NCBI GenBank assembly: GCA_017309115.1
Contig: JAFLEF010000007.1
Location: 62,001-126,000, forward strand
DNA length: 64,000 bases
From: Verrucomicrobiota bacterium
Lineage (GTDB): Bacteria; Verrucomicrobiota; Verrucomicrobiia; Limisphaerales; UBA9464
Direction of reading: 5' to 3'
Below are positions 1-13,900 of the stretch, piece by piece. Position 1 is the stretch's first letter; the number at the start of each line of letters is the position of its first letter. The notes beneath the pieces are model-generated. The model was not told the origin of the DNA and did not search any database. It saw nothing but the letters and a program-made list of their open reading frames with translations. Made by a program: the position numbers and the translations under genes.

Positions 1-899
1 GAACCGGCCGAAGCCGTCGGACCGCTCCACAGCGTGACCTTGAAATCTCCGGCCTTCACGCCCGCTCCCACCGACAGGATCGCCTGGGAGCCGTCCACCA
101 CGAGTTCCACCCCCTTGGGCAGGTCGGTTCCCGCGATCTTGGTCACAACGTCGCCGGCGGTGAAGGTGATGGTCGGCTGACCATTCTCGGTGGTGATCTG
201 CTTGGAAGCGCCCGGCACGTCCGCCAACAGAACCACGAACGGTTCCTTCACCTTTTGCGATTTGAAGAAGAGGAAGCCGGACTTCTCGGGTTCCAATCGG
301 AACGTGCGGGTGAACGCCACGCCGCCGGGTCCGGACACACTGCCGGGTTGTTCGAACACCTGGGTGCCCCGCGCGGTGTAGCTCAACACCACGTCATTGC
401 CGTCCACGTACAGCCCCTTCCAGTGCGCGACCGACTTGTCGATCGGACCGAACGGCTCCTTGCGGGTGTCCTTAAAGCCCGTTCCCGGAATGCCCACGCC
501 GGGACCATTCGGATTGCCGAACTTTTGATCCCCGACCATCTGGGGATGCTGCCCGTGGTTCCCATCGAACACCACGCCCCGGGTGTTGATGAACCCGCCG
601 GTCCAACCCGCGGCCATGCGCAACGTGTCGGAATCAAAGAGCATCGCGGCATCGTTGCCCACCCGGATGGCGTAGCCCTTGAGCGCCACGTTGTTGCTGG
701 GAAAATTGGCCCCAATACAGGCGGACTGGAACGGGAAATCTTCCTGCAACAGCCGGTAGGTTTCCTTGGCCTGACCCCAGGCCGGTGTCACCGCAGCCGC
801 GGAACCCACCAGAAGTGCCAAAGCGAGGATTCGACGGGCCGGTTGCAGGAGCGAAGGGGCCCCTCGACCGGGTACATGTGGACGAACAGATGTTTGCAT
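1..899 (-). CDS. DUF6797-type secreted protein, N-terminal part (3-prime end outside window)
   Basis: The 299 visible codons read leftward from an ATG at 899 and run off the window start without a stop. The N-terminus has a basic stretch, a hydrophobic core (LALALLVGSAAAV) and an AWGQ-like cleavage site near residue 43, so export is expected. The mature part contains AGWTGGFINTRGVVFDG, EPFGPIDKSVAHWKG and LYVDGNDVVLSY, the pattern I associate with DUF6797. That domain usually forms the N-terminal part of long Verrucomicrobiota/Planctomycetota proteins that continue into a sugar-dehydrogenase-like propeller and cytochrome c, but that part cannot be seen here. Function is unknown. The frame stays open some way upstream of the ATG with no better start, and a GGAGG lies about 20 bases upstream, which is far for a ribosome site. 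Confidence 0.7.
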   Translation of the reverse strand, partial: MQTSVRPHVPGRGAPSLLQPARRILALALLVGSAAAVTPAWGQAKETYRLLQEDFPFQSACIGANFPSNNVALKGYAIRVGNDAAMLFDSDTLRMAAGWTGGFINTRGVVFDGNHGQHPQMVGDQKFGNPNGPGVGIPGTGFKDTRKEPFGPIDKSVAHWKGLYVDGNDVVLSYTARGTQVFEQPGSVSGPGGVAFTRTFRLEPEKSGFLFFKSQKVKEPFVVLLADVPGASKQITTENGQPTITFTAGDVVTKIAGTDLPKGVELVVDGSQAILSVGAGVKAGDFKVTLWSGPTASAG

Positions 900-1293
900 G
901 TCGTTGAAGTCTATCAGAAGTGCCTCCGGAAGCGTCCAGACGCAAACGCGGGGCAAGTGTTGCAAAGAATTCCGCGGCCGGCTCGGACTTTCTCGGGACA
1001 TGGAACATTCAATCCGAATCCAGTCTCCCGAGCTCCCCAGGTCACGCGCAGCGGGGCTCCCAGCGTCTCTCCAAGGTAGGGCGACGCTCCGCGGAGCCGT
1101 TCACGGGTGAAGTAGTGCCGCGGGACTCGACCTGGCCCACCGAACAAAGCCTACCCTCAACCACTGCCACGCGCCCCAAAAGCGCCAGAACGCTAAAAGG
1201 CTGGCGCCCTCCAAACGCCTCGCGCAACCCCTTCCCGCTTCCCTCTCAGCTCTCTGCTCTCAGCTCTCAGCTTTTCCACCTTCCCTCGCCGAT
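900..1293. repeat. Gene-free stretch with dispersed repeat modules
   Basis: No convincing gene. It holds three pieces found elsewhere in the window. A GTAGGGCGACGCTCCGC module at 1076-1099 recurs at 5532-5555. A module at 1171-1235 starting GCGCCCCAAA and containing CTCCAAACGC recurs at 2791-2850 and near 24081-24120. A heptamer array at 1242-1274 reads on the minus strand as four AGCTGAG-like units, one of them AGCAGAG. The array lies 19 bases beyond the stop of the PEP-CTERM gene and reads in that gene's direction. Confidence 0.7.
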
Positions 1294-2085
1294 TCACGAC
1301 CGCCGCCGCGTCACCCACCCCAGTGCCGCTGCTCCCAAGCCCAGAAGTGCCCAGGTTGCCGGCTCGGGGACGACCGGCAGCGGACTGAACGACAGATCAT
1401 CCAGGATGTGGCTTTGGGCATTGGGTTGGCCGGGCAGCCTAGGAAAATCCCCGAAGTCATCGTAGCCCCGGCTGCGGAACTCGAAGCGCAGTTCGACGGT
1501 CTGGCCCGCGAACGGGCTCACATCCACTGCCAGGTAGCGAAAGAAAGGAATCTCCGGATCACCAGTAGGAACATCCGGCAGGGCAACAAGGGAACGGAGT
1601 TCTCCTCCCACAAACACCTGCAGATCATCGCCGTGATTAAGGGGTCCTTGGTGGAGAAACTGGAGCGACCTGGCATCCGCCGGAATGTCGCCCGTCTGCC
1701 AGAGGACATAGGGATCGTAGACGCCGCCAGTGACCGTCAGGGAAAGAGGCCAGATTCCCAACGAGTAGTTACCCACCACCGGAACTCGGGCGTTACTGCC
1801 GAAATGGGCATCTCGGAAGTCACGATCCAGAAGGCTGGCCCACCCTGAAAAACGCTGACTATAGTTGTAGCCAACAGCGGATTGGGTTTGCGGCCCGGTG
1901 TTCCAACCAGGGCGTACCCATTCACCGGGCGAGCTCGCAAAGGGAGGGCCCGGAATCCGCGGGGGCACCCAATCCGGAAACACCGGAGTATCGAATCCCA
2001 AGTTGATGAACGCCGCTGCTGAAACCTCGCTCCCAAGAGCGAAACAACAGGCGACAAGGCTTATCGAATGGCGGATCGAACTCAT
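1294..2085 (-). CDS. PEP-CTERM sorting domain protein
   Basis: A 263-residue exported protein. Residues 1-24 form a signal peptide ending near SAA. The last residues are a standard PEP-CTERM tail: VVPEPATW, then a hydrophobic helix (ALLGLGAAALGWV), then RRRS. Such tails are recognised by an exosortase/archaeosortase-type membrane transpeptidase and direct the protein to the envelope or exopolysaccharide. The body is beta-rich (SLQFLHQGP, GQTVELRFEF, HILDDLSFSPL) and resembles the jelly-roll domains common in PEP-CTERM proteins. No catalytic motif is visible. Its ATG overlaps the TGA of the gene upstream in an ATGA junction, so the two are probably translated as a coupled pair. No exosortase gene lies in the window. 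Confidence 0.85.
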   Translation of the reverse strand: MSSIRHSISLVACCFALGSEVSAAAFINLGFDTPVFPDWVPPRIPGPPFASSPGEWVRPGWNTGPQTQSAVGYNYSQRFSGWASLLDRDFRDAHFGSNARVPVVGNYSLGIWPLSLTVTGGVYDPYVLWQTGDIPADARSLQFLHQGPLNHGDDLQVFVGGELRSLVALPDVPTGDPEIPFFRYLAVDVSPFAGQTVELRFEFRSRGYDDFGDFPRLPGQPNAQSHILDDLSFSPLPVVPEPATWALLGLGAAALGWVTRRRS

Positions 2086-2502
2086 GGCACGTTCAAGAAG
2101 GCACTTTGGCTAAGGTTCCAGTAAGAGCCGCTCCCCGTAACCTGCAGGCGGGTTGCTTTAACTTGGTACATCGCTCCCGCCACTGCGCTGCCATCAATGA
2201 ATGACAGAGATGTGGTGGGGGAACTGTTCAGAAGAATCCAAGGGCCACTCAAGCCCGCAATACTGCGATAGATGTAGTAACCGCAACCCGGGTCCAAAGA
2301 CGAATTCCAATTCAGGGTCGTGGTCGCCCCAACTCGGCTTCCACCGTCACCGACGCCGATTCGATCACCCGTTCGGGCTCCTTCGCTGGGCCAACCCCCC
2401 TGCCCTTGAACGATCAGCCCACACGGAAGAAAGAGGGCCAGCAGGCGGAGAAGAAGCGAAGCACCGCGTCGGGGGGGGGGTAGAGCGAAATTGCAAACTC
2501 AT
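2082..2502 (-). CDS. Small exported Fn3-like protein, off frame by one base at a G10 tract
   Basis: From the ATG at 2502 the frame reads 10 codons (MSLQFRSTPP), enters a run of ten Cs on this strand, and then hits a TGA. If the run had nine Cs, one uninterrupted 139-residue protein would result, ending at 2082. That protein has a textbook signal peptide (two Arg, then LLLRLLALFLPCGLIV) followed by a small Fn3-like domain with TLNWNSS, YYIYRSIAGLSGPW, YQVKATRL and GSYWNLSQSAF. The last motifs are common at the ends of Verrucomicrobiota surface proteins. The downstream frame from 2297 to 2082 is also open from a TTG. The stop overlaps the start of the PEP-CTERM gene, which supports this frame. 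Either the gene is switched by slippage in the tract, or the sequence has a one-base homopolymer error. Confidence 0.65.
2471..2480 (+). repeat. G10 homopolymer within the signal-peptide coding region
   Basis: Ten consecutive G on the plus strand (C10 in the coding strand), beginning 22 bases after the ATG at 2502. A length of 9 or 12 restores the reading frame; 10 breaks it. It is by far the longest mononucleotide run I noticed in the window. Confidence 0.9.
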
Positions 2503-2539
2503 AGAGGGTTTAAAAATATAAATCTGAGACTCCTATTAA

Positions 2540-2566
2540 GTAATATTGGGGCGAACCCAAGGTCAA
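2540..2566 (-). promoter_or_regulatory. Possible promoter of the Fn3-like/PEP-CTERM pair
   Basis: On the minus strand TTGACC (2561-2566) is followed after 15 bases by TATTAC (2540-2545). The stretch from about 2500 to 2545 is strikingly AT rich for this genome. The spacer holds a small inverted repeat (TTGGG, TTCG, CCCAA). The spacing is shorter than ideal, so this is a weak call. Confidence 0.3.
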
Positions 2567-2915
2567 TGAAAACCTCACGACTGGGGCCTCAAAACTGGAA
2601 ACCCAGGCGGAGGTCGTCCGCAGATTGACACAGATTCACTCAGATTTTTCCGGAGAAGGCGGCGAAGCAAGGCGTAGAAGAATCTGCGCCAATCTGTGTT
2701 TAATGTGCGGATAAACCCTTCCCTCCGAGTTGATTGCTTTTCGGCCAGCGGCAGTGACGTGGAGTAACTCTGGCGGCCACCTGACATCGACGCGCCCCAA
2801 AGCGGCAGAGGGCTAGAGGGCTGCCGCACTCCAAACGCTTCGCGATCCCTTTACCGTCTCGCCAAGGATGACGCGGGACCGGCTGAAGCCGGGACTCCGA
2901 ACCACAGAGATCCGG
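2567..2915. repeat. Gene-free stretch: inverted CAGATT repeats and a dispersed module
   Basis: No convincing gene. Positions 2619-2647 (CCGCAGATTGACACAGATT and so on) and 2681-2710 (AATCTGCGCCAATCTG and so on) are imperfect inverted copies of one repeat, separated by about 33 bases, and could form a cruciform. The same family occurs at 21617-21646 and 30153-30183. Positions 2791-2850 carry the CCCCAAAGCGGCAGAGGGCT module that recurs near 24081 and, more divergent, at 1171. A short minus-strand open frame across this stretch (2575-2829) consists of repeat sequence and is not a credible gene. Confidence 0.7.
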
Positions 2916-3884
2916 CTATTTCCATGGATCCCGCCCGGTGTACTTCACCTGATTGGTGAGCACCTTCCGGGGTTGGGGCGGTTTATAAAGAATTCCGAAC
3001 CGGGCCAGATTGCTGGAGACCGTGGCCAGATTGGTCAACGCCCCACCCAATTGCAGCCGGAGGGCTTCGTCCGCCAACAAAGCGCCCGCCACCCCTCGCC
3101 CGGCCCGCAGGTCGGCCGTCATGGACTTAAGATCGGCGGTCGCCGCACTGGCATTGCCCAGCACCTCGCCGATGGCGGGTTTTTGCTCGGCCAGGAACCC
3201 ATCCACGTTGGTAGCCACAGTGGCCAACTGGACGGACAACGTGTTCAGATTGCTGAATGTCGCCGTGATGGTCGGGGAATTGTTGGTCACCAACCGGCGA
3301 ACGTCATGCAGCGCCTCGGTCGCTTCCGCCGACGCCAGACGGAAGTTGACAGCGGTCTCGGAAAGGTTGGTCAGGGTCGCTTCGGTCAAAAGTTTCTGAT
3401 CCACCCGCTCCACCGCGCTATTGATCCGCTCGACGGCCGTGTCGAGCTTGCCCAACAAGGCCGTCGCCGAACGCGCCGCATCCTGCAAATTAAACGGCGT
3501 CTCCGCCCGAACCGTGGCTCCATTCTCCAGAGGCGGTTTTTCATTCTTTTGGGGCACGATGGATACGAACTCGTCGCCCAGGAACCCGGATTGCTCGATG
3601 CCAAACTTGGCGTCGGCGTGAATCGGATACTTCTTCACGACTCGAACCGTAATCTTCACCGAGCGACGATCATCCGTCAGGTCGATCCCACTGACACTGC
3701 CGATCGGCACGCCGGACAAGGCCACCGGGGCTCCAACTTTCAGCCCCCCGACCCGTTCGGCCACGATGTCGAAGGTTAACGAGGGGGTGAACACGCCGCG
3801 GGACTTGCTGAAGTTCAGGATCATCCCAGCGATCACCGCCAGGGTGAACGCCACGAACAATCCCACTTTTCGAGGAGAGGACAT
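2916..3884 (-). CDS. mlaD: MlaD-family (MCE domain) lipid transport protein
   Basis: A 322-residue protein with one N-terminal membrane helix (residues 7-23, GLFVAFTLAVIAGMIL) followed by an MCE domain. The MCE signature is visible in VGGLKVGAPVALSGVPIGSV and in GFLGDEFVSIVP. The rest is a long helical region with repeated Thr/Asn/Leu heptads, as in other long MlaD/Ttg2C proteins. MCE proteins form rings that carry phospholipids between inner and outer membrane, working with the MlaF ATPase and MlaE permease. Both of those genes lie directly upstream, with a 13-base gap to mlaF. The gene is longer than E. coli mlaD (about 180 residues) because of the C-terminal helical tail. The start is the ATG at 3884. 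Confidence 0.9.
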   Translation of the reverse strand: MSSPRKVGLFVAFTLAVIAGMILNFSKSRGVFTPSLTFDIVAERVGGLKVGAPVALSGVPIGSVSGIDLTDDRRSVKITVRVVKKYPIHADAKFGIEQSGFLGDEFVSIVPQKNEKPPLENGATVRAETPFNLQDAARSATALLGKLDTAVERINSAVERVDQKLLTEATLTNLSETAVNFRLASAEATEALHDVRRLVTNNSPTITATFSNLNTLSVQLATVATNVDGFLAEQKPAIGEVLGNASAATADLKSMTADLRAGRGVAGALLADEALRLQLGGALTNLATVSSNLARFGILYKPPQPRKVLTNQVKYTGRDPWK

Positions 3885-3897
3885 GCGATTGGAGAGC

Positions 3898-4662
3898 TCA
3901 GACTGTGGCCACGGGTTCCGTCCTCAGCGGACGGTCGCTGGCGATGCCATTAACGAAATTGTGCACGATAGGGTCCTGGGAGCCGAGAATCTCCGGCGTG
4001 GAGGCATCGGCGTAGATCACTCCTTCGTGAAGCATTAGAATCCGGTCGCTGATGCGGCGGGCGCTGGCCATGTCGTGCGTCACGGCAATGCTCGTGATGC
4101 CCAACTGCTGCCAAATCCGGCGAATCACCGCGTCAATGCGCGCGCCAGCGATCGGATCCAAGCCGGTCGTGGGTTCGTCGTAGAGCAGAATGGCCGGGCG
4201 ATAAATGATGGCCCGGGCCAAACCGACCCGTTTGCGCATGCCGCCCGAGAGTTCCGCCGGCTTCTTCTCTTCAATGCCGGACAACTCCACCATTTCGAGC
4301 GCTTCCGCGACCAACCGGCGAACTTCCCCCAGGGTGTGGCGCTTCTCACGCAGAAGAACAAAGCCGACGTTCTCGAACACATTTAAGGAATCAAACAGCG
4401 CCGCGCCCTGGAACAGCATGCCGAAGTTGCGCCGCACTGCGAGCAAGGCGCGTTCGTCCAAACTGCACAGATTGGTACCCTTGATCTGAATCGTTCCGCG
4501 ATCCGGTTGCAGCAATGCCACCAAATGTTTCAACAGGACACTTTTGCCGCCGCCGCTACGACCGATGATCACCACCGCCTCGCCCGCCGAAATCGACAGC
4601 GAGACGCCCTTCAAGACCGGCGTCTTCCGAAAACTTTTCCAAACGTCCTTAACCTCGATCAT
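3898..4662 (-). CDS. mlaF: MlaF-type ABC transporter ATPase
   Basis: A 254-residue ATPase that powers the MCE lipid transporter. Walker A is GRSGGGKS at residues 34-41. The Q-loop region reads FGMLFQGAALFDSL, the form typical of MlaF. The signature is ELSGGMRKRVGLARA, Walker B is ILLYDEPTTGLDP, and the switch His is in TSIAVTHDM. The gene sits between mlaE (18 bases upstream) and mlaD (13 bases downstream) on the same strand, forming an mlaEFD operon. No mlaB or mlaC is present here. Confidence 0.93.
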   Translation of the reverse strand: MIEVKDVWKSFRKTPVLKGVSLSISAGEAVVIIGRSGGGKSVLLKHLVALLQPDRGTIQIKGTNLCSLDERALLAVRRNFGMLFQGAALFDSLNVFENVGFVLLREKRHTLGEVRRLVAEALEMVELSGIEEKKPAELSGGMRKRVGLARAIIYRPAILLYDEPTTGLDPIAGARIDAVIRRIWQQLGITSIAVTHDMASARRISDRILMLHEGVIYADASTPEILGSQDPIVHNFVNGIASDRPLRTEPVATV

Positions 4663-4680
4663 GGCGCAAACACCTCCGCT

Positions 4681-5457
4681 TCAGCCGAGCAGCTGGGTCA
4701 GGAGCAAGGTGAGGAAGAAGTTACTGATCAAGATCGTGATGGACGCCGCCACGACAGCTTCGGTAGTCGCCCGACCCACGCCTTCAGCCCCTTCCGGGCA
4801 GGTCAGCCCCTTGTAACAACAGATCAGCGCAATGGTCGCCCCGAACAGCGTCGCCTTGATCAGCCCGATCGCGATGTCGCTGGCCGCCGTGTAGCGATTG
4901 ACGTAGGCCACGTAGTAGGCGCCTTCGATGCCCAACAGCTTCACCCCCACCAGGTAACTGGCGAAAATGCCGGTCAAAACCGCCTCCCCCGTCAGCAACG
5001 GGGCCGCCACGGTCAGGGCCAACAACCGGGGCACCACCAAATGATCCACCGGATGAGTGGCCAGGGTACGAAGCGCGTCGATCTGCTCCGTCACTCGCAT
5101 GGTGCCCAATTCCGCCGCCAGCGAGGCGCCAACCCGGGCGGTGAGCATCAGTCCGGCCAGCACCGGGCCCAATTCGCTGGCCATACCCACACTCACGACG
5201 GCCCCTGTCGCCGTATCCAGACGCACCTTGTGGAACTGAAAGTAGGTCTGCGCGCACAGCACCATTCCCGTCGCGGCGCCGGTGGTGATGACCACGCTCT
5301 GAGACTTTACGCCCACGGCATACAATTGGCGGACGAACTCACCCCACGAGGGCCGCTGATACTTGAGGGAACGGACGGCTTCGCCCAGCAATTGAGCCAC
5401 GGACCCGAGGGTCTCGAGGCCATCATCCAACTTTCGGCGTACGGAAGCAAAACTCAC
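4681..5457 (-). CDS. mlaE: MlaE-family ABC transporter permease
   Basis: Permease of the MCE lipid transporter, about 258 residues from a GTG at 5457. Family features are GMASELGPVLAGLMLTARVG, AAELGTMRVTEQIDAL and PRLLALTVAAPLL, and five or so hydrophobic segments ending in TILISNFFLTLLLTQLLG. The frame stays open upstream to 5622, but those residues are encoded by dispersed intergenic repeat (the GCGACGCTCCGC module) and have no family counterpart, so the shorter start is preferred; the GTG has no strong ribosome site. First gene of mlaEFD. Confidence 0.9.
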   Translation of the reverse strand: MSFASVRRKLDDGLETLGSVAQLLGEAVRSLKYQRPSWGEFVRQLYAVGVKSQSVVITTGAATGMVLCAQTYFQFHKVRLDTATGAVVSVGMASELGPVLAGLMLTARVGASLAAELGTMRVTEQIDALRTLATHPVDHLVVPRLLALTVAAPLLTGEAVLTGIFASYLVGVKLLGIEGAYYVAYVNRYTAASDIAIGLIKATLFGATIALICCYKGLTCPEGAEGVGRATTEAVVAASITILISNFFLTLLLTQLLG

Positions 5458-5692
5458 GCGAGGGGCGATGGTAACCCGGTTACCCCGTGAGTGCCAACCT
5501 CCACGAAGAAATCCCCATTCCCCTCTCCACCGGTAGGGCGACGCTCCGCAAAGCCGTCCGCCTGTGGAGTCCTGACCCGTCATTCGCCGAGACGCGAACG
5601 GCTCGGCGGAGCCTCGCCCCACCGCTTACCCCTTACCCCTTACCCCTTACCCCTTACCCGCCTTTTCCTCTCAGCTCTCAGCTCTCAGCTTT
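5458..5692 (-). repeat. Modular repeat block downstream of murJ
   Basis: Read on the murJ strand the order is: (AGCTGAG)3-AGG (5668-5690, overlapping the murJ stop), then a GGGGTAA heptamer array (5626-5659, four full units plus a partial one), then a module with a potential stem (GGCGAGGCTCCGCCGAGCC, 5586-5625), then the reverse of the GTAGGGCGACGCTCCGC module (5532-5555). The same kinds of module occur between other genes in this window. The G-rich array on the minus strand has five runs of three or four G, enough for a G-quadruplex. Confidence 0.75.
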
Positions 5693-7248
5693 CCCCGCCC
5701 CACCCGACTGCGCACCAACCGCACCATCTCCCGCGCCGGGGTCAGTCCTCGCCACCAGCAGACCCCAAAATACGCCCCACTCGCCACGCCAATGGCCCCA
5801 AACACCGTCAATCCCCTCGCCCAATACCGCTCCACGCCCCACCAGTGTTGTCCGGCGACGCTCCATCCCCAGGCCAACACGCCCGCCAACAACCCGGCCG
5901 ACCCCAGCACCAGCACGGTCGAACTGAGACCTTCGTAGGTAAACTTCGGCAGCTTCCGGCGCAGCGCGAACACCAACAAGGCGGTGTTGAGCACCGCACT
6001 GACCGTGTTCGCCAAGCCCATGCCGGCCTGCCGGAACAAGGGGATCAGGAAAAATGCCAGCACCACATTGACCGCCAGGCACACCACGCTGATGCGCATC
6101 GGGGTCTTGGTGTCGCCCAGGGCGTAAAAGGCCCGGGAATAGATGCTGTTCAGCGAGAAGGCGAGTAGACCCGGCGCGAGCATCCAAAGGGCTTGCGCCG
6201 ACAAAAAGGTGTCCTCGGCCGTGAACTTCCCGTGCTGAAACAGCAGCCGAATCATGGGTTCCGCCAACACCAGCAGCAGCACCGTGGCCAGGGTGTTGAT
6301 GAACACCAGTTGCATCAGGCCCTCCCGCAGCGCCGCCCGGAACTCCGGAAACTTCTTCTCCGCGGCCAATCCACTCAGTTCCGCCAGCAAATAAGTCGCC
6401 AACGACACGCCCACGACGCCCTGCGGCAGCTCCATGAGTCGGACCGCATAGTTGAAGGCCGACACGATGTTCTTGGCTTCATTGACCGCCAGCGTCTGGG
6501 TGAGCACCACATTGAACTGATACGCCGCCACTCCCAGCGTCGCCGGGGCCATCCGTTGAATGACCTCCTTGACCGTGGGATTGCCGATCGGATTGACCCA
6601 CCGAAAGCGAAAACCCTCCCGATGCAGCGCCGGATACTGGAACACCGCCTGCACCAGCCCGGCGAGCAACACGCCCACGGCCAGACCAAAAACCTGGGAA
6701 TCCAAATGCGACCCAAATCCCGGGGCGATCAGAAACACCGCCGCAATCATCACCACGTTGAGCAACGAAGCGCCCAAGGCCGGCATGAAGAAGTGACCCC
6801 GGGCATTGAGAATCCCAATGAACACCGCCGTCATGCAGACAAACAGCAGGTAGGGGAACATCAGGCGCATCAGCCGGACGATGAGTTCGGCCTGGCCTCC
6901 CAACGGAATCCACGCCAGCACGCCGGTCAGACCGATCATGGCCACCACCACCACAGCTCCGCACAGGAGCAGGAGCGCCGAAAAGACGGCCCGAGCTGAA
7001 TCCCACATAACCGCCTCGCCGGCGGTTTTCTCCCGCTCCTTGAAGATGGGAATGAACGCCGCCGTGAGGGCTCCCTCGCCCAGCAACCGGCGAAACAGGT
7101 TGGGAATGGAATAGGCGTAGTAGAAGGCGTCGGCGACCGGACCCACGCCCATGAACCCGGCGTACACCGCTTCCCGTACAAAGCCCAGCACACGACTGAT
7201 CAGCGTGGCGGCTCCGACGGCGCCGGTGGACTTCAACAACCGAGACAT
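5671..7248 (-). CDS. murJ: MurJ lipid II flippase (MviN family)
   Basis: A 525-residue polytopic membrane protein that flips lipid II across the inner membrane for peptidoglycan synthesis. The N-terminus (STGAVGAATLISRVLGFVRE, then VADAFYYAYSIPNLFRRLLGEGALTAAF) is the strongly conserved MurJ signature. About 14 hydrophobic segments follow, matching the family. The start is the ATG at 7248; an in-frame TTG at 7287 would add 13 residues without family support. The last codons (KLRAES, stop) are read from the AGCTGAG heptamer array, so the natural C-terminus seems to have been set by a repeat. It lies about 210 bases upstream of mlaE on the same strand. Confidence 0.93.
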   Translation of the reverse strand: MSRLLKSTGAVGAATLISRVLGFVREAVYAGFMGVGPVADAFYYAYSIPNLFRRLLGEGALTAAFIPIFKEREKTAGEAVMWDSARAVFSALLLLCGAVVVVAMIGLTGVLAWIPLGGQAELIVRLMRLMFPYLLFVCMTAVFIGILNARGHFFMPALGASLLNVVMIAAVFLIAPGFGSHLDSQVFGLAVGVLLAGLVQAVFQYPALHREGFRFRWVNPIGNPTVKEVIQRMAPATLGVAAYQFNVVLTQTLAVNEAKNIVSAFNYAVRLMELPQGVVGVSLATYLLAELSGLAAEKKFPEFRAALREGLMQLVFINTLATVLLLVLAEPMIRLLFQHGKFTAEDTFLSAQALWMLAPGLLAFSLNSIYSRAFYALGDTKTPMRISVVCLAVNVVLAFFLIPLFRQAGMGLANTVSAVLNTALLVFALRRKLPKFTYEGLSSTVLVLGSAGLLAGVLAWGWSVAGQHWWGVERYWARGLTVFGAIGVASGAYFGVCWWRGLTPAREMVRLVRSRVGRGKLRAES

Positions 7249-7366
7249 TGGGCGCGGATGGTTCGGGTAAGCCGTCGCCGGGTGCAAGCGCGCGTCGGAA
7301 CCGGTGAGTCGGCGACGGTGGGCAATCCGAAGGCCGCGGGCAGGAGTTCCCGGGTTCGCCCCGGCG

Positions 7367-10300
7367 TCATTCCGAGTCGCCCAGTAGGAACCGGAGGTCG
7401 TCGAGAGTCAGGGCCGACGCAAAGCGCTCTTCGCCCAACACTTCATCCGCCAGAGCGCTCTTGGTCTTTTGCAGCGTTCGAATTTTCTCCTCGATGCTGC
7501 CCTTGATGAGCAACCGATACGCCAGGATTTTGCGGGTCTGGCCAATCCGATGGGTCCGGTCGATGGCCTGATTCTCCACCGCCGGATTCCACCACGGATC
7601 AAACAGAACCACGTAGCTGGCGGCCGTCAGATTCAATCCCGCGCCGCCTGCCTTCAGGCTGATCAAAAACACTCCACCGCCTTCATGCGACTGAAAGTCT
7701 TTCACCAGGTCGCCCCGATTCTCCGTCTCGCCCGCGAGGTACCACTGCTTCCAACCCCGCTTCTCCAACGCCGGTTGGAGCAAGGCCAGGAGCCCCACGA
7801 ACTGGGAAAACACCAAGACTTTTTCGCCCTCTTCCAGCAGCGGTTCGAGGGTTTCCAGCAGTGCTTCGAACTTGGCGCCGGACTGCTTGGAATCCGGATG
7901 AATCAAACCGGGATGACAACAGATCTGCCGCAACCTCAGCAGGGACGTGAGGAAATGAAACCGCTGCTGATTGAAGGATTTCTCCGACTTCAGGGAGAGC
8001 AACGCCTGCTGGGCCAGTTTCAGCTCCGCCCGATACAGGGCGCGCTGTTCTCCCTCCAGTTCGCAATACAAGTCTTCCTCCACCCGATCCGGAAGTTCCC
8101 GCGCCACCTGAGCCTTGGTACGACGCAGCAAGAACGGTCGAACCCGGGCCGACAAACGGGTGCGGGCCAGCGGATCCTCCTTGGCATCGTACAATCGGCC
8201 AAAGCCATTCCGGCTACCCAGAACTCCCGGCATGGCGAACGACATCAGACTCCACAGATCCAGCAGCCGATTCTCGATCGGGGTGCCGGTCAGAATCAGC
8301 CGATAATCCGCCTTGAGTTTGCGGGCCACCTGAGTGGTTTGGGAGGAGGGGTTCTTGATGTTCTGACCCTCGTCGAGAATCACCGTCAGAAAGTCCACCG
8401 ACTCCCAGTGGGATTGGGCGGCCCGCAATTGGGCGTAGTTGATCACGTGAAGGTCCGCCGCAGCGATTCGGGTCGCCGCCTCGTCCTCGGACGCCTCCCG
8501 CCACAAGTGCACGCGCAGCTCGGGATAGAACCGTTCCGCCTCGGCTCGCCAGTTGTCCTGAACACTCTTGGGACACACCACCAGCGAAGGCCGACCTCGG
8601 CGTTCGGGTTTTGCTCCTTCGTGCCGCAACCAGGCCAGCCAGGTCAGGGTCTGGAGCGTCTTGCCCAATCCCATGTCATCTGCCAGCACCCCACCAAAGC
8701 CATTGGCGGCGAGATACGCCAGGAAATGAAATCCGTCCCGCTGATACGGGCGCAACTCTGCGCGAATGGCCGAAGGAATCTCCGGACTCACCCGGGCTCG
8801 CAGCTCCGACGCCCGACGTTCCACCAACTCGGCCGTCGCTTCCGGCAGCAAACGACGGGCGGAGGGATCCGACAATTGCAGCGCGTGCAACCGCTGGGGT
8901 TCCGCGCCGAGTTGCCGGGGTGTGAGGCCAATGCGGGCGAGATTCTTTTCTTCCTCCGACGAGACCTCGTAGTCCAACCGACGCCAGCGGTCTCCCAGCT
9001 TCACCCACGTTCCGCGGGCCGACACCAAGGCCTTAAGCTCCTCTGGCGTCAGACTGGTATCCTCCACCCGCACCACCACCCGCAAATCAAACCAGTCCGG
9101 ACCGGCTTCCGTCGCTTCCAGCCGCACGGTTCCGGCCAACTGACCTTCCCGGAGCGACGTCAGTTCCGGACAAAGGCGGAGCTGGGCCACCTCCGCGACC
9201 GAATCGAGAAAGCGCCGCATCATCTCCGGGAAATCGCGCGTTAGTTTCAGACTCCAACCCGGGCAGTAAGGTTCCGGCGTGAAGCCCGCCTCCCGCAACC
9301 GTTCCAACACCCGCTGGGCGTTGCTCGAATCCAGATGAACCTCGTCCGCCGATTCCCGACCTGACCCGCGCCACCCAGAAGGTTCCAACTTGTGGAGGTA
9401 GCTACCGTTCGGACCGGAAGCCACACCCGACGCTCGGCACATAATGGGACCGCCCGTTCGATCAATCTTCAAAGTTAGCGTGACGTTCAGGGTAACCACG
9501 CGAATCTTGGCGCGAACCTGCTCCGGGGGCGAAATCTGCGCCCACTGCAACAGCCGCATTCCCAAGCCTGACTCCACCACCCGTGCAGGAATCGCCTTTA
9601 GGTTTCCCGACGGAACGTCCACCGGAAAGGCTGGCGGACCCGGGAAGATTCCCGCCGCCGTTCGATAAAGGATCGGATTGCCCGCCAATTGCGCCTGAAT
9701 TGCCCCGACCGGTCGACCCTCGGGATCGACCAACTCGAGGGCATACGTGCCGCCATCCTGATTCGGCTCGCGCAACTGCCAGCGTAGGGGAGTCTCTGAA
9801 ATTTGGATTGGCTGCCCCGACTCATCGACGATGAGCTCCGCCGTGGACGGGGACTGTAGATTGGCGCTCAGCCAGCGCTGCAGGGGCAACGAATCGTCGT
9901 TCAACCGACCGTGGTGCCAATGGATCAGGAAGAAGGAATTCCAGAGGGCCGCCGCCGTCCCGCGAAGCGACTCCGACTCCCGGCGATGAAACGTATCAAT
10001 CTGGTTGTTCTTAAGCGCTCGCCACCCGCCCTCCCCTTCCTGGATCTCCGGTGTGACCTGACGTCCCGTCCAACGGAAACGAACCTGAAGACGCCGCTCC
10101 CTACCTTCCGTCGTTGAGGCCAGGGGCAACCGATCCAGCGCCTGCCGCCATTGAGCAAGTTCCCGTTCGTTCTTCTTTTTCTGGAGACTGGCCTCCAATC
10201 CCCGAGGCATCTCCAACGCTTGAAGCGAAGCGGGAATCACGTAACCCCGTTCGCGGGCGAGATCGGCCAAGAGAAACCAGAACTCAACCTCGGTCTCCGG

Positions 10301-10917: not shown

Positions 10918-13900
10918 TCACGGCAGCAACCGAATCCGGTAGTGGCGTTCGTTCCGACCCGAAATCAGCGGATCCCGCACGGTCACGGGAGCCCCGGTTC
11001 CCACGACGTCCTGCCAGAAGGTCCAGGTCGGTGCGGTCAGGTCGGCTTGGAATTCCACCCGATACGTTCGTCCCACCTGGGTCTGCCAGCGCAGGACCAT
11101 CGCCGTTCCGTCGAGTTCCGCCGCCAGAGTTCCCAGCGGCGCCGGGAGATCCGTACCAGGGGTCGGTTCGGTCCAGCGACTCGCGCCCGCTGGCCGCTCG
11201 AGATCCGGCACCGCCGCGCGATCGGCCGCCGCGTCGAAGTACCGCAGATAGTCCACCACCGCGACACCGCCCGGTTGAGTGCGGCTCAGCAACACCACGC
11301 CCGTGCTCGCATTCAAACGGAAGGAGGTGTGCCACTCCGTTTCGGTTCCGGCCTGACCGTCCGCAAACACCACCACCCGACTGTTCGGGGGCAGCGTGGC
11401 GCCCGCCGGAAAGCTCCAGCGATTGAGTTGGGCTACGGAGTCGCTCAGGAACCAGCCCTCCAGACTCACCGGTTCCGAACCCAGATTGGCCAATTCCAAC
11501 CACGGTTCGCGCTGGCCATTCGAGTTGGTGATTCCGGTCTGATTGAGCGGCACAATTTCGGTCAGATAAACCGAGGGGAACTCCGGCAGCTCCAGAACCA
11601 CGTTGTTGGGCTCACCCGGAGTGAAGGGCACCACGTTGCCGCCCTCTAGCCGGAGCGAGGCGCCAAAGACGATGTCGGAACTTCCCACATTGTTCTGATG
11701 CACCTCCACCGCCAGTACGTTGACCCCGGATCGCAGGGCGGTGGCCGGAAGCGTGAAGGGTCCGGTGATCGTGGCATCGCTAACCAAGTCCGCCGGGGTG
11801 TTGAAGTCCACGACCACATCGGCCGGGATATTCTGCCGGAACACTTCCTGGCCGTTCAGATAGAACACCGCGCCGTCGTCGAGAATGGTGTTCAGGATCA
11901 ATTGGGCTCCGGACGGAACCGCCGGAATGACGAACGCTGTCCGGAAGTAGTAGGTGCTTTGGCCAATGTTCAGCGGGGTCCCCTTGGGAGCAGGCAACTC
12001 AGCCGATTCCACGTACAACAGACCATTCCCCGTCGGCCAGGAGGCGTCATTGAACGACTCCGAACGCCACGCGACATCGAGCGGCCCGGACTGGTAGTAG
12101 CGCCACGATTGCGTGAAGGCGACCAGGTCGCGCGGACCGTTGTAGCTGGCCGAGGCCGACCAGTTACCCACCCGCTGTGAATCCCTCCGCACGTCCACCA
12201 GTTGCAGCGCAGCGCCGCCTCCATTCGCAGCGGCCGGCCAGGGCTGTTCCGCTTCGAACCGAATTTCGTTCAGCACCAGATCGGCCGCACCACCGGTTCC
12301 CGGACGAATCAACCGCAACACATCGCCCGCCAACGTCGGTGTCCCGGTCCAGACGCCTGCCAGGGTCGGCTTGTTGCCGTAGGTGGAACGGAACACCGTG
12401 CCATTCCGGGCCACGCAGACCATGGCCTCAGGGCCCAGGATGAAGTCAGCCGGGAACGTGAAGTTGAGGTTGAGTCCGGTCAGGCGAAGCCCACCCAGAT
12501 TCCACGGCGTCACCGCCGACGGATTCACCACTTCGAGGTATTCAGCCCCGGCCACCGCGGGCCGATACATGATCTCCTGAATCGTCACCCGGAAGCGGGG
12601 TTGAACCGTGATGGAGAATGTCTGACTGCCACTCAATCCACCCGGGCCGTTGTCCGTCACTACGACCGTGATGGGTTGCACCTTGGCGCCGGTGTCATCG
12701 GGAATCGTCCAAGTGAACACGCCCGTCACCGGATCAATCGCCGCCCCTGCCGGAGCCCCTGCTCCGAGGGAGTACAACAGGGATTGAGCGGGTCGATCCG
12801 GATCAATTCCGCGGGCCGTGAACGTCACGGTCTGCCCTTCCTCCGCCGTCCAGTCGGACAGAGCCTCCAACCGCGGCGCTTGATTCTGTTCCAGCACGGT
12901 GATCCCGAGGGAGTACTGATCGCTCAGGGCAGTTCCGAAGGTTTGGGTCACACGAATCACGACCAACTGGCTGCCCGGACCATCATCCTCGGTGGTTGCC
13001 CAGGTCAGAACTCCGGTCACGGCATCAATCCGCGCCGCCGCCGGCGCACCCGCCGCCAAACTGAACCGCAGGCCGGACGCCTGGCTGTCCAAGTCCGTAG
13101 CCGTGTTGGTCACCACGACCGTCTCGCCCTCAGTCACGATCACCGGGGACAGCACGGTGATGACCGGCGGATTGTCCACTTCCCGAACCGTGACGCGGAA
13201 GGAGCGGTCCGTGCTGAGCGCCGTTTCCGCGGTTCCGTCCGACACCCGGACCGTCAGCGTGTATTCGCCAGGCCCCTGGGCTTCGGTGGGGGTCCAGGAA
13301 AACTCTCCAGTGGCTTCCGAGAGAACCGCGCCGGCCGGCGGGTTCACCAACCGATACACCAGCGCTTGCGCCGGCAGATCCGGATCAGTCGCCGTTACGG
13401 TGAAGCTGAGCGCGGAACCTTCGTCCACCAACCGATCCACTAGCACCGGTACCTGCGGCGGAAGATTCACTTCGGAAACCGTTACCGTGATCCGTTCCAA
13501 GTCCTGCCGCGACGGCGTGCCCGAGTCATTGACCCGAACGGCGAAACTGTACACTCCGGGTCCCTGAAGTTCCGTGGGCTGCCACGTCAAAACGCCCAGC
13601 GACGAATCAATGGTCGCTCCCGGTGGCGCATCCGCACTTAGACTAAAGGTGAGCCGCTGTCCGGCGTCCGGATCCGTGGCCTGCACCGTGATGTTCAGCA
13701 GACTGCCTTCCGCCACCGACTGATTGCCAATCGGAGCCAAAACGGGCGGCAGGTTGCCTCCAGCGATGGCGTTGCCGGCGCGCGGAGTCGGCGTGTCGAG
13801 TTCCAACAACGGCCCGGTGTCACCATCCGGATAGCGTCCTTGCGACACATCGTTGCGCTGCGCGCCAAAGCTCACGCTGTCCACCAACTCGCCGTTGGGA

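Follow-up and report, generated by a model that had tools for sequence, protein, structure and literature searches.

A poly-C tract near the start of a truncated secreted-protein gene in a verrucomicrobial genome: a probable slipped-strand switch with counterparts across a gene family

Can a run of ten identical bases, placed just behind the start codon of a small gene, turn that gene on and off? The question is raised by a locus in a 64,000-nucleotide stretch of a Verrucomicrobiota genome (the whole stretch analysed, hereafter the window). Homopolymer phase variation is known chiefly from host-adapted bacteria. Slipped-strand switching by in-frame homopolymers occurs in Neisseria, Haemophilus, Campylobacter and Helicobacter, and the meningococcal genes porA and opc have promoter-spacer switches of poly-G/C. 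A sequence-only reading of the window had proposed a switch of this kind. Following it up, we consider it probable (about 0.76) that the tract is a slipped-strand on/off switch inherited from a family of large proteins predicted to be secreted, and that it now stands on a copy short of ~5.1 kb. At the level of the family, slipped-strand phase variation is well supported by comparison of the sequences.

The tract and the gene behind it

The features of the locus, in window coordinates, are the following.

2561..2566, minus strand: TTGACC, kept in the three leader copies of the genome; a putative -35 box, from sequence comparison
2340..2602, minus strand: leader, comprising the upstream region, the start, the tract and the predicted signal-peptide code; common to the paralogous loci on contigs C41 and C42
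2481..2502, minus strand: start codon ATG plus the 19 nt that separate it from the tract, the last 16 identical in all three leaders
2471..2480, minus strand: C10 homopolymer, the proposed slipped-strand switch, out of phase as assembled (from the sequence and its open reading frames)
2395..2400, minus strand: G6 run, aligned with G5 in C42 and GGGAG in C41
2340..2350, minus strand: junction of an internal deletion, from alignment to C41
2082..2342, minus strand: C-terminal Fn3-like remnant that keeps the paralogue's frame (dN/dS 0.26 relative to C41, from 13 differences only)
2082..2085, minus strand: ATGA, in which the stop codon of the upstream frame overlaps the PEP-CTERM start; C41 shares this overlap, and in C42 the genes are separated by two bases
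1294..2085, minus strand: PEP-CTERM surface-protein gene, 263 amino acids, 96% identical in amino acids to the C41 copy (dN/dS 0.12)

The basic layout was read from the sequence. The run is G10 at 2471-2480 of the plus strand, which is C10 on the coding strand, and it sets in 22 nt after the A of the ATG at 2502. With ten Cs, as assembled, the frame from this ATG meets an early stop and encodes 45 amino acids (2365-2502). Tract lengths of nine and twelve, and also six, connect the ATG with the downstream frame, which is open until the TGA at 2084-2082; nine Cs give 22 + 9 + 389 = 420 nt, or 139 amino acids and a stop. The TGA overlaps the ATG at 2085 of the PEP-CTERM gene (ATGA). That downstream gene had been called PEP-CTERM from the sequence alone, and profile matches agree: PF07589 at E 5.4e-7, with 29.9 bits against a curated cut-off of 20.7, and TIGR02595 with 26.3 against a cut-off of 16. 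In all these points the sequence-only reading stands; the tract is real, and so is the layout of a switch.

The C10 tract follows the start codon and precedes the part that encodes a hydrophobic, signal-peptide-like stretch; the signal peptide, and with it the word 'exported', was judged by eye. An automatic promoter scan of window positions 2000-3000 returned zero sites, and an Rfam scan of positions 1-6000 returned zero matches. Elsewhere in the window, ORFs resembling those of an MCE-domain protein, an ABC ATPase and a permease (Mla-type lipid transport) were recognised by eye at 2916-5622, as was a MurJ-like ORF at 5671-7287.

The claim that the nine-C frame encodes one complete small protein did not survive alignment to the paralogue C41. 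In the window, the leader runs straight into the final ~260 nt of a large gene, and ~5.1 kb present in C41 are missing from between them. The extra base in the G6 run (2395..2400) brings the nine-C leader frame into phase with the Fn3 part across this deletion. By sequence comparison, the 139 residues are what an internal deletion has left of a predicted protein of ~1,850 residues, and any function of the window copy when on is therefore doubtful. The part of the mini-protein after the tract (130 residues) had no homologue at E 0.001 among 96 candidates. The description as Fn3-like is weak at the sequence level (E 0.0097 between the family profile and 3mpc, 'Fn3-like protein') and clearer in the predicted fold of a homologue's C-terminus.

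Leader copies and the parent family

The genome comprises 7.53 Mb in 111 contigs. An exact scan of it for G9 gave 11 overlapping matches, corresponding to eight distinct G/C runs of at least nine, and homologous leaders hold three of the eight: the C10 of the window, a C9 on C41 (53119-53127) and a C10 on C42 (473-482). Elsewhere the genome has a G10 on C77 and a G9 on each of C17, C44, C60 and C62. The leaders of C41 and C42 are 78% and 90% identical to that of the window, respectively. Behind the C42 leader stands a frame of 1,856 codons, with its own ATG out of phase at C10. The C9 of C41 puts its ATG in phase, but ~130 codons further on a gap of 14 nt with respect to C42 shifts the frame, after which a frame of 1,708 codons follows. 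With C41 in phase but frameshifted, no leader copy of the three is intact and on as assembled. A PEP-CTERM gene lies directly behind each of them, overlapping in the window and in C41. Near the starts of three further family genes of this genome, one on C51 and two on C64, G/C runs of six or more are absent.

A DNA search with the leader in 195 genomes found it in one, this genome, in three copies, and a search against a phage collection gave zero matches. Four other genomes of the same genus are without the gene, so that there is no same-species comparison. Other repeated sequence was seen around these loci. A broken extra copy of the PEP-CTERM gene lies on C69 (L034:4708-5113; 91% DNA identity over 410 nt). 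A dispersed intergenic repeat, GCGCCCCAAAGCG...CCAAACGC, was found by comparison and by eye near several of the loci (window 2780-2850 and ~1170-1230; L032:3760-3819 and 13348-13418; L033:9878-9993). A stretch beginning AATCTGAGTGAATCTG... is present directly upstream of two leader copies, at ~2600-2700 of the window and in C42 (L033 ~280-350), and might be a mediator of leader exchange.

Judged by eye, the large protein begins with a signal-peptide-like stretch. Its N-terminal domain, modelled with confidence (mean pLDDT 85), had no PDB match at E 0.001 (best 0.038). TSP3-type matches were present in all eight members scanned, laminin-G matches in two and weak beta-helix matches in two. For the C-terminal 465 residues of one homologue, the predicted structure matched gingipain K (PDB 6i9a; Foldseek E 1.7e-8, TM-score 0.42, 10% identity) in a model of moderate confidence (mean pLDDT 66), and Fn3 domains ranked next for the same residues. 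The predicted C-terminal fold thus resembles a gingipain-type C25 peptidase with an Ig/Fn3 tail; unlike gingipain, the family gave no Pfam peptidase match in the eight relatives scanned, and the likeness is one of predicted fold only.

At the level of the order, the N-terminal domain was matched in 107 of 321 genomes, and a phylum-wide draw gave a family match in 3 of 288, this genome being included in both counts. A scan of genome contigs yielded 15 named relatives, the best 45% identical; all 15 are metagenome-assembled, and several carry groundwater, river or deep-cast names. Three proteins from other assemblies (P0003, P0004 and P0007) have N-terminal domains closely similar to that of C42; their annotated start is an internal MVQGQG and leaves no signal peptide. 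Such starts, seen here in protein records only, fit what would be expected if the tracts of these genes were out of phase.

The window copy may itself be a decaying pseudogene, its tract the leftover of a once-switchable gene that no longer has control of anything important. We rate this reading, which is compatible with a switchable family, at somewhat less than even odds. It would account for the loss of ~5.1 kb and for a mini-protein without a homologue among the 96 candidates, and it has company in the dead copies of the same genome, namely C41 with its 14-nt frameshift and the broken PEP-CTERM copy on C69. The dN/dS of 0.12 of the PEP-CTERM gene relative to C41 speaks against decay, as do the open fused frame and the added G that restores phase at nine Cs, although neither is proof of current function. 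The switch proposed by the sequence-only reading is strengthened by the leader at three loci and by the comparisons of the family given below, and weakened for the window gene itself, a truncated remnant of doubtful function. The window copy may be a decaying copy with coupling as its chief remaining role.

G/C tracts at the 5' ends of the family

If the tract is a switch inherited from the family, other members would be expected to carry such runs. Of 196 loci with a tblastn match, those whose match began past query residue 60 were removed and genes with the same 80 nt in common were counted once, which left 146 distinct homologous genes among the matches listed; some listed matches that start late in the query were left out. 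The window copy is outside the 146 because its N-terminal domain is lost. For each gene, a 390-nt window at the 5' end was set against one window in the gene body and one far upstream.

G/C runs of at least eight were present in 21 of 146 5' windows, in 0 of 146 body windows and in 0 of 135 upstream windows; the counts for runs of at least nine were 14, 0 and 0. The other 125 family genes have no run of eight or more. A/T runs of at least eight were few (two in 5' windows, none in bodies, one upstream), so that the enrichment concerns G and C. In a sulfatase control, drawn from 58 genomes that are mostly others than those with tracts, 1 of 90 5' windows had a run of at least eight (Fisher p 3e-4, with genes treated as independent), and this sole tract (L298, G9) has no TTGAC-like box alongside. 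When the 5' windows were shuffled by dinucleotide in 100 rounds, with the GG/CC pairs of the tracts themselves preserved, runs of at least eight averaged 4.26 per round and numbered 11 at most; composition therefore accounts for a few tracts. If tracts were placed uniformly, no more than 0.18 of at least nine would be expected, against 14 seen, for 30 genes (tallied by hand) in 14 genomes that were chosen for having tracts and whose whole-genome rates vary widely; at the pooled rate, 0.95 would be expected over all 146 genes. The 21 tracts are spread over 18 genomes, 15 genera (that of the window included) and 10 families, the genes not being independent of one another. Together these sequence comparisons make a strong case for a family-wide pattern of 5' tracts.

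The enrichment does not extend to tandem repeats in general. Arrays of period four or more numbered 23 in 146 5' windows against 29 in 135 upstream windows (7 in 146 bodies), so that there is no general 5' enrichment; of such repeats, the 17-mer of a G010 homologue described below alone serves as support, and a perfect heptamer array at L234, which sits upstream of the start, was set aside. Some genomes are rich in homopolymers throughout: G201, G203 and G209 have 286-318 overlapping poly-C9/G9 matches per genome, and one run of 33 was seen (L252).

The counts bear directly on the possibility that the window tract is a sequencing or assembly error, the true length being nine Cs and the gene being read constitutively. 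Homopolymers are error-prone, and the sequence-only reading had named such an error as the main alternative. An error would explain at most the length of one tract in a single assembly, and the tracts recur across many assemblies: it cannot place them in 21 of 146 5' ends and in none of 281 body and upstream windows. The paralogue C42 likewise has C10, and the genes with a promoter-type tract, described next, have no frame to restore. An isolated length error at the window tract is possible; as an explanation it is improbable.

The tracts occur in two layouts. Eight of the 21 lie in or beside a predicted signal peptide, like that of the window (L003, L032, L056, L149, L164, L229, L239 and L245). 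Another eight are poly-G runs (8-12) that follow a TTGAC-like hexamer upstream of the start codon, in a promoter-like arrangement (L047, which is on G049:C240, L141, L167, L171, L175, L238, L240 and L241), and five match neither layout (L040, L057, L177, L192 and L235). The pattern TTGA[CT]N followed by 2-12 nt and G6 or more occurred seven times in 5' windows and 0 times in both control windows; with C in place of G it occurred 0 times. The box of L171 reads TTGTCT. Box spacing can be read as 19 nt in L047, L141, L238 and L240, and as 16-17 in L167 (G8). Among other tracts viewed by eye with 45-nt flanks (24 from 12 further genomes, all eight of G000 and all ten of G049), the TTGAC-G-TA arrangement was seen only at L162, a family gene. 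In one G010 homologue (L086:7868-8000, G010:C35), the part encoding the signal-peptide-like stretch instead has a 17-mer repeated in 3.9 perfect copies; the unit is not divisible by three, and the array is out of phase with the preceding ATG at 7868.

Phase was judged from the ATG of the signal-peptide-like frame in nine coding tracts, the window included. Three are in phase (C9 in C41, C11 in L149, C8 in L056) and six are out of phase. An in-frame GTG start is also present in L245, and immediately behind the tract there are in-frame ATGs in L229, L239 and L245, so that 'off' may mean 'without signal peptide' in these genes. Tract length varies between close relatives. The tract is the sole gap in the 672-column alignment of L141 (G11) with L167 (G8), which share 96.1% identity and belong to different genomes of one genus; paralogues differ by C9 and C10. 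These comparisons are across genomes and paralogues, not within a strain. For gene pairs with at least one out-of-phase member, dN/dS is 0.23-0.37, which suggests that such genes are expressed at least part of the time, a pairwise value being an average over the past that falls partly before the gene went out of phase.

It is least probable of all that the runs are kept as polyproline for the sake of the amino acids, or as a slippery site that makes RNA polymerase or the ribosome produce several frames in steady proportion, and not as a heritable switch in the DNA: the coding tracts do encode prolines in or near the signal-peptide-like stretch, and transcriptional slippage occurs at long homopolymers, A/T runs being the usual ones according to an excerpt of one source (PMC3711429), but eight tracts are poly-G behind a TTGAC-like box upstream of the start codon, in six of the nine coding tracts the prolines are out of phase with the body, and one homologue has a 17-mer repeat in the same position.

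The proposed mechanism and its relation to known systems

We return to the slipped-strand switch as the preferred reading. Since runs recur in the predicted signal peptide or just upstream of the gene across 15 genera, a random switch of a surface protein is likely. The mechanism would proceed as follows, each step being modelled by analogy on well-known systems. Slippage in replication would add or remove a base of the run. In the coding layout, a lineage would then alternate between export of the protein and a stop after a few dozen residues, and the adjoining PEP-CTERM gene would be translated at a lower rate in the off state. Where the layout is promoter-like, the length of the poly-G would alter box spacing and, through it, transcription. 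The window copy, when on, would give a small exported Fn3-like protein together with coupled translation of the PEP-CTERM gene.

The coding tracts share with the reading-frame switches of the Neisseria type a poly-C/G run of 8-12 close to the 5' end of a gene for a surface or secreted protein, a length that sets the frame, and the occurrence of both phases. They differ in family, phylum and protein type, in lying in or beside a predicted signal peptide, and in that their switching is a proposal. The promoter-like tracts resemble porA and opc in that a poly-G stands behind a TTGAC-like box, frequently with TA after it, and that its length would alter spacing. Unlike in porA and opc, the promoters here are predicted from sequence, and one family uses either the promoter or the reading-frame layout.

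The view that phase variation would be new to the Verrucomicrobiota has to be abandoned, as it is already in print for Akkermansia (PMC3048395, PMC13343947; both as excerpted). Homopolymer-based phase variation was suggested there in 2011, in a text that names Neisseria, Haemophilus, Campylobacter and Helicobacter as comparators and describes such variation as 'mainly human-associated' (PMC3048395, excerpt), and in 2026 the capsule was shown to be under inverton control (PMC13343947, excerpt). Akkermansia muciniphila is thus comparable in phylum, in phase variation of a surface feature and in the homopolymer slippage suggested for it (PMC3048395, excerpt). It differs in the genes concerned (capsule, cps1) and in that the proven switch is a DNA inversion (PMC13343947, excerpt). 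Among the papers listed from the open-licence literature searched, we found no published report on the present family.

A wider proposal is that the family is phase-variable throughout the order, in apparently free-living Verrucomicrobiota, and that the type of switch has often been swapped between a poly-G spacer, a poly-C in the signal peptide and longer tandem repeats. We regard this as an even bet. If it is true, a giant surface protein and its PEP-CTERM partner would be bet-hedged together, and deleted copies like that of the window would keep the switch on the PEP-CTERM gene alone. Gene callers may place the starts of such genes too late or label them pseudogenes. From the recurrence of 5' tracts in one predicted secreted-protein family across 15 genera, random surface switching would seem to be common among these bacteria as well, where it may perhaps serve against phage or grazers.
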